The notes under the pieces are model-generated. The model was not told where the DNA came from, made no database searches, and worked only from the letters and a program-made list of their open reading frames with translations. From Alphaproteobacteria bacterium (GTDB taxonomy: Bacteria > Pseudomonadota > Alphaproteobacteria > Caulobacterales > Parvularculaceae), in the NCBI GenBank assembly GCA_016125455.1, contig WGLS01000001.1:496001-560000 (forward strand): a DNA stretch of 64,000 nt, written 5' to 3'. Below are positions 18,443 to 25,619 of the stretch, in pieces. A program made the position numbers and the translations under genes. How positions within the stretch are numbered: the stretch's first letter is position 1; every line of letters starts with the position of its first letter.

Positions 18443-19519
18443 CTATTTCAGGCCTGCCGCCGATGCGAACTTGCGCAGAAAAGCATCCGCTTCTCGCTGT
18501 CGCAGGTTCTTCGCGATTTTCACGCGTCGACTGCCGTAGTCCACGCAAACATGGTAGGCGGTTGAAGCTCGCGGCCGGTCAAAAAACAGGTCCCGGATCG
18601 CAACGCCCAGCGCCGCGCCGGCCATGTAGTTGACGCCCTGCGTGCGTTTCGCGCCTTGCTTCATAATGCGCCTATTGTTGCCCAGCGTCTTGAGAACGCT
18701 GTTGAAGACGTACGCCTTTTTGATCTTCCGTATTTCCAGTCTCTCTCTGTTCGCGAATACGACGCCGTCCGAAACGATGACCCTTCTGGGCGCGACCCGC
18801 ATTGCAAACATGAAGACGATCGCCCAAAGCAGAAAGGGAATAAAAATGAAGTTGATTATCGGGATCAGCGAAAAACCGATCAGGTAGATCCAGACGAGCG
18901 GACCCGGAATCGCCGCCCGGTAGTTAAGCACGATTGCGTCGTCATTGATTTCGGACCGGACGTCGCCTGTCAATTCGGCCGTTTCCTCGGCGCTAATGGC
19001 TTCGCCGGGTGCGGACGCTTTGTTGCCCGCCGCGGCGAATTCTTCCCCGGCTTCGACGCGGAGGAAACTCGCCGGCGGCGCGATGCATGCGTCAGCGGCT
19101 TGCGATCGCTGGCCGCTTCGCCGCTCCTCAAGGTAGGCCTCTCGGATGTCGCGCTCAAGCGCGCGTCCGACAAACACGCGCATCGCGTTGCTGAAACTGT
19201 CGCGTCCGGCGGCGAATGCTTTACGGTAACCGATCCATTCGCCTGATGGCCGCACGACTGCCTTCGCCGCCGCAAGGGCGAGTTCAACCGCAACGACAGG
19301 CGCGCTGAACAACAGCGAAGCGAATGCCGCAGGGGCGAGCGCCAACCCCAGACCGACCTTTTCAATCGGGCCGCGGCTCGCAAATGCTTCCGACAGGCTG
19401 ACTTCGACGGAGCGGGTCGCCTCGGCGATCCCGGTGAAATCCACGGCGATGCGGCGCGGGTCGCTGACGCCCCATCGGTCATGAACCGCCAGCTCGAATA
19501 CGCCAAAACGAAATCGCAT
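18443..19519 (-). CDS. Hypothetical membrane protein
   Basis: 358 residues, no family recognised. The N-terminal 40 residues look soluble, followed by a helical stretch with hydrophobic runs ([27 protein letters not shown]) and a long low-hydrophobicity middle part. A membrane pair lies in the C-terminal half ([39 protein letters not shown]), followed by a basic soluble tail with a [17 protein letters not shown] stretch. ATG 19519 was preferred to the in-frame GTG at 19531; the site upstream is poor (GGGGG). It is divergent from hrcA. The two promoters must share the 129-base gap 19520-19648. Confidence 0.7.
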
Positions 19520-19648
19520 ATGCCCCCGCACTTCAGGTTAATGATTACCGACCCTTGCGCGGCTGGCAACCCGGGGCCGCCGGCGACAGAGGGGGCCTTG
19601 CAGCCGCAGGCGCTTCTCGAACCAGGCGTAGCGCTCTATCTAACAGGC

Positions 19649-21477: not shown

Positions 21478-21774
21478 CTAGATTTCGACGCCACTTCTCG
21501 CCGCCGGCTCGGCGGGTTGATCAATTGACTGCGGCGCATCGAGCTCCTCGCACGACGGCAGGGAGGGGTCGTCGCCGCGCTTCATCTTGATACGTATAAT
21601 CATGTCGCGCGCCGACTCGCTGTTTGCGTTCCTGTCGCAGATGCGGACTTCGAGCGCAGGCGCGACGAATCTGACAGATGGACGATTGTTCTCGCTGATC
21701 GATACGTCGACCGACATCGCCGCGTAGCTTGCGAGATAGAGCGCCGCGCCGGCCAGAAGCATCTGTTCCTTCAT
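21478..21774 (-). CDS. Small secreted or membrane-anchored hypothetical protein
   Basis: 98 residues. A strong GAGGAGGG site sits 4 bases before ATG 21774, which fixes the start; the frame runs further upstream without one. The N-terminus (MKEQMLLAGAALYLASYAA) is a plausible signal peptide. The mature part contains one internal cysteine pair (positions in CDRN and SCEELDAPQ) and ends with an acidic/Pro tail. I do not recognise it. It converges on grpE (gap of 9 bases). Its promoter lies in the 219-base space before the next gene. Confidence 0.7.
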   Translation of the reverse strand: MKEQMLLAGAALYLASYAAMSVDVSISENNRPSVRFVAPALEVRICDRNANSESARDMIIRIKMKRGDDPSLPSCEELDAPQSIDQPAEPAARSGVEI

Positions 21775-21946
21775 TTCGCCCTCCTCATGCTGATGAATTA
21801 GGCGTGCCTCCTGATAGGCCGCTGCGCGGCTGAATTCACTAGTGAATGCTGGCGCCGCGTTGCTGCGCTGCATCATTGCGGGTCGCGCAATCTGCAGGCG
21901 CGGTCGCCGCACGATCAGGATCTTGTCGTGATGCTTGCGCGATCAG

Positions 21947-21963
21947 TCATGATCTAATCATGA
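21947..21963. promoter_or_regulatory. Perfect 7-3-7 inverted repeat, operator candidate
   Basis: TCATGAT-CTA-ATCATGA has two exact complementary 7-base arms around a 3-base centre. It lies 31 bases ahead of ATG 21994 and about 170 bases from the divergent ATG 21774. Such a site is what a dimeric regulator would bind. Confidence 0.6.
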
Positions 21964-21993
21964 TGCTCGGGATCGAAGGAGGGCGCTGGCGAC

Positions 21994-23028
21994 ATGGCGG
22001 GGAAATCATTCAAGGTCGACGGGCAGATTGCGCTCCTCGCCTTCGCGCTCAGGATGCACAAGCCGTCGACACCGTCCGGGCCAATCGAGCTTCACGTGCG
22101 GGTGCGCGATGTTTGCGACCGCGCATGGCGAGAGGCGTTGAGTGCGGAAAAAGCGCCCGTGCAGCCAACGTTTCACCGCTGGTATCGTGGCGAAACCGGA
22201 ATCGGCCCCGAAAATCTGAAAGGCTTGCAGCTGGCGCTGAAATGGATTGCCGATGGCCGAATCCCGTTTGAAGCCGTCGATCTCACGAGACCCGTCCATG
22301 AACTTGCGGTGAAATATGGCGTGTCTCTGGACGATTTTCACGCCTGGCTTTCCGAAGCGGAGGCGGAGCGCAATGGCGGCGCGCCGGATCCCCGTCGCGA
22401 ACGCGACGCCTCGATCGTAAAGGATATTGGCGGCGTCAGCCTCTGCTATCGTCATCACACGCACCCCAAGTTCGGCGACCTTGTGCGACGGACTGCGATG
22501 GTCGTTGTTGCGCGAGACCCGGGTCCCGGCGTCGAGATCCAGCTTGTCGGACCGACGGGAAAGGTCTGGTCGGGCGAAATCGTCCGTGGACAGGATACCT
22601 ATACCGCAATTGTTGAACGCCGCGGCGAAACGGGCGGGTGGTTTGTCAACACAATTACGCTTGCGACCTTTGGCGGCTCAAAGAATGTCCGAAGCGGGTT
22701 TCGAACGCGCATTTCGGACGACTTCGTCCGGTATCTCTCATCGTACAGATTACTGTGCGTGCGGCGGCCGGATCTGGACCCGATCCTCGATTCAGATGAC
22801 TACGTCTCATCGCTGCAAGGTCTGTGTCATGACGTCAGCTTGTCGGCAAAGCCCTCGTCAGACGCAAAGAAGAAAGCCTATTTGGAGATCGACAAGGCGT
22901 TGAACGCAGACCGGCCAAGAGATCCGAGCACTGGCGAGCTGATTGGCCAAGGGTCTTCCGTATTGGTTTACTTCTTCGACCCGCGACGGTTTGATCTCGC
23001 GCTTATTGCCGCCGATCCTGCAAGCTAG
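21994..23028 (+). CDS. Hypothetical protein, unrecognised family (possible DNA-binding regulator)
   Basis: 344 residues. The first about 100 residues are alpha-helical with basic residues (KSFKVDGQIALLAFALRMHKP, FHRWYRGETGIGPENLKGLQLALKW) and could form a helix-turn-helix module of the regulator kind; this is my inference only. The middle has beta-rich parts (VVVARDPGPGVEIQLVGPTG, YTAIVERRGETGGWFVNTIT). The C-terminal third is mixed alpha/beta and includes DPILDSDDYVSSLQGLCHDV. No signal peptide or membrane segment is seen. GGAGGG lies about 12 bases before ATG 21994. It stands alone behind a perfect palindrome and next to housekeeping coaBC, which is convergent 4 bases beyond its end. Worth a structure search. 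Confidence 0.72.
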   Translation: MAGKSFKVDGQIALLAFALRMHKPSTPSGPIELHVRVRDVCDRAWREALSAEKAPVQPTFHRWYRGETGIGPENLKGLQLALKWIADGRIPFEAVDLTRPVHELAVKYGVSLDDFHAWLSEAEAERNGGAPDPRRERDASIVKDIGGVSLCYRHHTHPKFGDLVRRTAMVVVARDPGPGVEIQLVGPTGKVWSGEIVRGQDTYTAIVERRGETGGWFVNTITLATFGGSKNVRSGFRTRISDDFVRYLSSYRLLCVRRPDLDPILDSDDYVSSLQGLCHDVSLSAKPSSDAKKKAYLEIDKALNADRPRDPSTGELIGQGSSVLVYFFDPRRFDLALIAADPAS

Positions 23029-24235: not shown

Positions 24236-24581
24236 AGCGGCAAGACTAATCCATCAGGGCGCGTCATGTAATGGCGAAGCAATCGAACTTTGACGCCATT
24301 TGACGTTTTTACTTGCCAGGACCATCCGTTTTCGTTAACCCCCGCCGCCCGGCGAGGCGTTCCCCCGCCGTGAAACGGAGAAGCACATGCGTTTAGGCCA
24401 GCGAGCGAGTTTCGCGAACGTCTGACGCGTTGTCCGTCGTCCTTCCGGATGACCGGCGGCGCAGAGGCGTCGCCTGATTGTTTGAAAATGCCTCTTTGGC
24501 GATCGCCGCCGTCACGTTGCGCCCCGTTTGGCGCATGCATCGGCGTGTCGCCGTTTGGCTCCCCGGAAGGAGATACATGTC
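24236..24581. other. 346-base intergenic region between coaBC and the PcfJ-like gene
   Basis: Divergent promoter region. The 7-base word TTTGACG occurs twice ten bases apart (24289-24295 and 24299-24305), one helical turn, as a response-regulator site could. A short frame MRLGQRASFANV (24387-24425) has GGAGAAG six bases upstream and might be a leader peptide; no attenuator hairpin was seen. Otherwise no gene of normal size is supported. Confidence 0.6.
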
Positions 24582-25619
24582 ATGTCGCACGAAATTGTGC
24601 GCGGCGCGCTTGCTCCGTGGCCGCCTGACGGCGCGGATACGGCGCTCGGCGGCGCCTATGGCTGGCTGACGCCGCACGTTGCGGCGATCGCTGGCGTCAA
24701 TCCGGATTTTGCCCGCCGCGCGCTCGTGCTCGAACGATCGGAGCTTCACTTTATTGCTCTCGCGATCTCGTTGATGGAGCCGTCGGGCCTGGAACGGCGC
24801 GAGGTGGAAGCGCTTGGCCGGCGGATTGGCGTTGCGCCGCGCGACGCCGTTCTTGCCGCCGCGGCGCCGGCGGGGACCCGCGGCATGGCGTCCGTGGTCG
24901 GACGACTCGTCGGCAAGGTCTGGCGTCCGCCGACTTATCGACGGCTTGCCGCACTGATGGCGAACGCGGAGACCGCCAAGGCGATCCGTCACATGAAGAA
25001 CGTCTCCCGCCGCGACATCCGGACGATGACGCGGCTGCCCGATGGCTACCGGACGCGTCCGGTCATCGAGCTTTTGCGACGTCGCGGGCACGTGCCGACT
25101 GTCGTGTTCGCAATTGATCTGGTCCGCCGCGTACGGCGCGACCTGACTGACCGGCAGATAATGGAATCGCTCAAGTCGATGCAGCCGGGCAACCCGCCTG
25201 AATGGATCGAACGCCATTACGCGGCCGCGCCTTTCCCGCCGCCGCCTGCGCCTGGCGTTCTGCCGGTGGCTGGCGGCGGCAAGCTGACGCCGCTCATGCG
25301 GTACGGCGAACTGGTGCAGGCAGGCGAGGCCTTGAGAAACTGCGCGCGCACTTACGCGATGGCGGTTATCAGGGGCGATTCGTATATCTATGCGTACACG
25401 GTTCACCGCGGTCATGCCCACTGGCCCGGCGGCATGGTCGAGGTGCGCCGCGCGCCACTTGCCGGCTGGTGCGCCGTGCAGGCGCTCGGCCAGTCGAATG
25501 AGCCGCTGGCGCCGGCCGCCCGTTTTGCCCTCGCCGCCGCCCTGAAGTCTGCGGGTTATCTCGTTGCGCCGCGGCTGGTCCACCCCGATGCGCCCTGGCT
25601 CAACATCGACTTCGACTGA
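24582..25619 (+). CDS. PcfJ-like protein (chromosomal orphan)
   Basis: 345 residues. The C-terminal part (about 245-325) reads EALRNCARTYAMAVIRGDSY, then IYAYTVHRG, then MVEVRRAPLAGWCAVQALGQSN, the layout of the PcfJ family: a Gly/Cys turn, a tyrosine strand, a strand with charged residues and a Q-x-x-G-x-x-N end. PcfJ-like proteins are known from conjugative plasmids and phage-like elements but their activity is not established. The N-terminal 230 residues are alpha-helical, basic in the middle (VVGRLVGKVWRPPTYRRLAAL). AAGGAG lies 10 bases before ATG 24582. No conjugation genes are nearby, so a mobile origin or a domesticated role is inference. Confidence 0.65.
   Translation: MSHEIVRGALAPWPPDGADTALGGAYGWLTPHVAAIAGVNPDFARRALVLERSELHFIALAISLMEPSGLERREVEALGRRIGVAPRDAVLAAAAPAGTRGMASVVGRLVGKVWRPPTYRRLAALMANAETAKAIRHMKNVSRRDIRTMTRLPDGYRTRPVIELLRRRGHVPTVVFAIDLVRRVRRDLTDRQIMESLKSMQPGNPPEWIERHYAAAPFPPPPAPGVLPVAGGGKLTPLMRYGELVQAGEALRNCARTYAMAVIRGDSYIYAYTVHRGHAHWPGGMVEVRRAPLAGWCAVQALGQSNEPLAPAARFALAAALKSAGYLVAPRLVHPDAPWLNIDFD

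Follow-up and report, generated by a model that had tools for sequence, protein, structure and literature searches.

A rare orphan protein preceded by phased TCATGA repeats: a candidate mobile, autoregulating Xre-like regulator in the Parvularculaceae

Among the regulators carried along with phage-defence and conjugation cargo, few are understood. RptR, an autoregulator that represses defence islands encoding Type I restriction-modification, was at first without homologues in the PDB and was found alongside defence genes; its operator consists of three direct repeats, each containing the 6-bp palindrome TAGCTA, located between 58 and 31 bp upstream of the RptR start (PMC12255303). BrxR and CapW are autoregulating WYL-domain repressors located on mobile defence islands, in which a helix-turn-helix (HTH) is joined to a C-terminal ligand-binding domain (PMC9122601, PMC9122588).

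Here we describe a gene from a 64-kb stretch of DNA (the window) in a 3.6-Mb genome (G000), whose 344-residue product can be compared with these regulators and with those of the Xre/lambda-repressor type, without membership in the RptR, Xre/HTH_3 or BrxR/CapW families being claimed. As in RptR, the gene's own promoter has direct repeats of a 6-bp palindrome (TCATGA/TCGTGA); the likeness is one of operator layout, and by analogy RptR would be a published precedent that the operator style here resembles. Unlike RptR, a compact single-domain four-helix protein reading 9-bp units with the core TAGCTA, the present protein has an Xre-like region followed by a large C-terminal part, and its putative operator has the core TCATGA in repeats 10-11 bp apart. 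The N-terminus aligns in HTH register with Xre/lambda-repressor-type regulators (P22 C2, HTH_3), but it scores below every curated threshold, and the C-terminal part matches nothing known. The proposed architecture (an HTH plus a C-terminal sensor), autoregulation and mobile elements recall BrxR/CapW; however, no WYL domain was found here (Pfam, PADLOC), and in contrast to the 11-bp inverted repeats of BrxR operators the repeats are direct, with a 6-bp core. The reading that we favour, at a probability of about 0.65, is that of an Xre-like regulator, rare and mobile, that controls its own gene and has a C-terminal domain of unclassified fold. Coordinates are collected in Table 1.

Table 1. Features of the locus in the window, of its counterpart in genome G022 (positions prefixed L), and two further window ORFs
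Feature	Position	Strand	Details
Insert between the grpE and coaBC stop codons	21469..23032		1,564 bp; missing in the sister species G002
Divergent small ORF	21478..21777	-	ATG at 21777; 99 codons; AGGAGGG Shine-Dalgarno; hydrophobic N-terminus (hydropathy)
Second perfect palindrome, ATTCACT-AGTGAAT (ATTCACTAGTGAAT)	21834..21847		14 bp; 57 bp upstream of the small divergent ORF
Putative operator repeat 1, TCGTGA (then TGCT)	21926..21931	+	-68; phased cluster
Putative operator repeat 2, TCATGA, the palindrome's left half	21947..21952	+	-47; phased cluster
Putative operator repeat 3, TCATGA, the palindrome's right half (then TGCT, like repeat 1)	21958..21963	+	-36
7-3-7 palindrome, TCATGAT-CTA-ATCATGA	21947..21963		30 bases before the ATG
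Orphan-protein ORF	21994-23028	+	ATG start; 344 aa
Domains of the 344-aa protein	residues ~36-86, then C-terminal		Candidate Xre-like HTH region, then C-terminal domain of unclassified fold
Promoter units of the G022 homologue	-83, -73, -52, -42		TCATGA, TCGTGA, TCATGA and ACATGA, respectively
SIR2 + short prokaryotic Argonaute pair	L006:11326-14534	-	G022 conjugative element; Abi_2-like and patatin genes close by
Two more TCATGA hexamers	L006:11150 and 11184		G022; 34 bp apart, between the small ORF and the Argonaute gene
One-mismatch TCATGA pair	L054:10665-10680		On the G022 element that carries the homologue, ~10 bp ahead of a traG/virD4-like gene
363-aa ORF	24528-25619	+	No Pfam match; NCBIfam RecX E 0.76, chance-level
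362-aa ORF	18443-19531	-	Hydrophobic stretches; no match in Pfam or NCBIfam

The 344-residue reading frame announced by the first-pass annotation is present, with AAGGAGG 11 bases 5' of its ATG, and the accompanying claim that it matches no family held in the profile search proposed there: no family scored above threshold in Pfam, NCBIfam, PADLOC, PHROGs or the PDB. Whole-genome searches found one relative, in a 2.9-Mb genome (G022) of another genus of the same family: a complete ORF of 366 codons, 30% identical over residues 7-329 (E 7e-31), with similarity running along the length. Neither protein gave any Pfam match up to E 10 or reached the gathering score of HTH_3 (PF01381). Sampling of the order, the class and the phylum turned up no further homologues, and neither did plasmids, phages, viral contigs or pattern-limited scans of genome contigs. 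As judged from these searches, the protein is very rare and undescribed.

In both proteins the N-terminal region contains RW(Y/F)(R/K)GE and, after it, a helix with N(L/I)..L, as in Xre proteins. The best match of a profile of the pair against the PDB was the P22 C2 repressor, in register and at a sub-threshold E of 0.029; an hhalign comparison with HTH_3 proteins encoded in the same genome gave E 0.0028 with a probability of only 11% (E 0.57 for the C-terminal control). These comparisons lend weak support to an HTH of the lambda-repressor/Xre type, so that the DNA-binding N-terminus proposed earlier is favoured by sub-threshold profile matches, although Pfam finds no HTH. Structure prediction, also suggested earlier, was run with AlphaFold without an alignment and reached a pLDDT of only 36 for the full protein and 46 for residues 1-135; in the latter model helices fall at places plausible for a five-helix HTH, and its Foldseek matches are non-significant and, at such confidence, uninformative.

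The gene is flanked by the housekeeping genes grpE and coaBC, as had been remarked, but it does not sit alone between them, sharing a 1.56-kb insert with a divergent small ORF. The sister species has grpE and coaBC side by side with overlapping stop codons, and the window therefore probably carries a 1.56-kb acquisition made by horizontal transfer. The third-position GC of the gene is 0.66, versus 0.74-0.77 in its neighbours, and the G022 relative is located elsewhere in its own genome than the grpE/coaBC interval; no direct repeat of at least 8 bp was found at the insert ends, nor any flanking duplication. Acquisition by transfer explains this most simply, and we infer gain over loss; the absence of the insert from the sister species may instead be a loss there. 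In the other family members whose contigs permit the check, grpE and coaBC are non-adjacent; the contigs of G001 stop here.

The palindrome before the gene is perfect, as the first-pass annotation stated, and lies 30 rather than 31 bases from the ATG. The 3.6-Mb genome has no second copy of these arms at that spacing, and the palindrome can alternatively be read as a direct repeat, TCATGAT-N4-TCATGAT. That such palindromes are intrinsically rare was ruled out, their counts being at Markov background: with 7-bp arms and spacers of 0-8 the window holds 99 (versus 89 +/- 16 in Markov sequence), and with a spacer of 3 it holds 8 (8.9 expected), while Markov simulation of the 216-bp intergenic region produced at least one in 22% of cases and at least two in 8%. 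With counts at chance level, the palindrome alone gives no evidence. Because the bases flanking the cores recur in the same orientation (TCGTGATGCT and TCATGATGCT for the window, TCATGAAGCA and TCGTGAAGCA for G022), direct repeats of a short palindromic core are preferred over one long palindrome, and the latter is unlikely to be the operator unit in itself.

A search before the homologue, where the long palindrome had been expected to recur, found the same TCATGA motif at the same promoter position, though the form shared is one of phased 6-bp repeats; the regulator reading gains support from this relative, the only one found. In both promoters the units are spaced by 10, 11 or 21 bp, so they would face approximately the same side of the helix, and since the two genes lie in unrelated genomic contexts, the motif appears to travel with the gene. 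The pattern TCATGAN{4,5}WCATGA, whose W and 4-5 spacing were chosen after both sites were seen, has a single occurrence in each of G000 and G022, directly 5' of the homologous gene in both, and none in G002. Allowing at most one mismatch, TCATGA-N4-TCATGA occurs eight times in G022, two of these occurrences lying in the 85 bp that precede the homologue; the probability that one or more of the eight would fall in that 100 bp is ~3e-4, for a spacing that had been picked after inspection. The window promoter is the sole place in the 64 kb with two TCATGA inside 100 bp, and this window-derived criterion selects 17 of 5,491 overlapping intervals of the G022 region (~0.3%), in three clusters of which one is the homologue promoter (roughly p 0.002-0.003). 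Neither repeat array was called by Tandem Repeats Finder, and no sigma-70-type promoter match was found. Two other sites were set aside: an exact TCATGATTAATCATGA site in G004, where the gene is absent, lies among glycosyltransferase-like and sulfotransferase-like ORFs and was judged a chance occurrence, and the one-mismatch site before the traG/virD4-like gene is too weak to make that gene a second target.

Might the upstream likeness be chance, or the site of a host regulator, with the protein an orphan of unrelated function? Motif conservation is here one comparison between two family members, the palindrome count of the window is at background, and the two upstream sequences, aligned directly, show no significant similarity (208 of 2000 shuffles reach the score), all of which would fit such a view; yet the paired motif is rare genome-wide and placed before both homologues, and the repeats are alike in position and helical phase, so that we regard this explanation as quite improbable. 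The surroundings of the homologue raise another. In G022 it is cargo on a conjugative element, seemingly an integrative one (TrbI from Pfam; VirB4-, VirB11-, VirD4-like and relaxase-like ORFs by inspection), and defence-type genes lie ~1-6 kb away: a SIR2/short-Argonaute pair, a protein resembling Abi_2 that scores just below the cut-off, and a patatin phospholipase; a Y-family polymerase is also near. Together with the patchy occurrence of the family, this neighbourhood would suit an effector of mobile elements that acts alone, in an accessory or defence role; its helical N-terminus would then have a role apart from autoregulation, and the TCATGA repeats before the gene would be the operator of another regulator. 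The defence-library (PADLOC) search, however, gave no match for the 344-aa protein and only SP_VI for the homologue (E 0.032 across 42 residues), and the window's insert contains no defence genes; we consider an effector unlikely.

The G022 homologue is likewise preceded by a divergent small ORF with a hydrophobic N-terminus. As the two small proteins have no detectable similarity (E 0.38), a conserved regulator/small-ORF pair is only a possibility, and the small ORF of the window is a possible regulatory target. Its weak matches elsewhere (E 0.016-0.09) were rejected, being located at unrelated loci.

Under the favoured reading of an autoregulating Xre-like protein, the gene would have arrived horizontally and would encode a transcriptional regulator of the lambda-repressor/Xre class, whose N-terminal HTH reads TCATGA-type 6-bp cores on one face of the helix, 36-68 bases before its own start. 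The protein would control its own gene, probably by repression, and possibly the divergent small ORF as well, while the C-terminal domain may dimerise or sense a signal; binding, the sign of regulation, the signal and the targets are what we infer from the locus and its relative. The self-controlled regulator of the first-pass annotation thus survives in its main idea, through the motif shared with the relative's promoter and the sub-threshold Xre-like N-terminus, though probably not with the long palindrome as its operator; the novel sensor domain and the undescribed system that it envisaged are possibilities. A broader proposal goes further and is doubtful as a whole: that mobile elements carry an undescribed family of regulators in which a diverged HTH of the lambda-repressor type is joined to a new C-terminal domain for signal sensing. 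Such regulators would read helically phased 6-bp palindromes and control themselves and a divergent small protein that is anchored in the membrane or exported, together with, in some hosts, defence or conjugation genes nearby.

A common palindrome, weak evidence by itself, was made informative by the promoter of a distant homologue. If the favoured reading is true, it would add a rare family to the regulators associated with phage-defence and conjugation cargo, with an operator code that is compact and easy to test, and with a C-terminal domain, as yet unclassified, that may act as a sensor.
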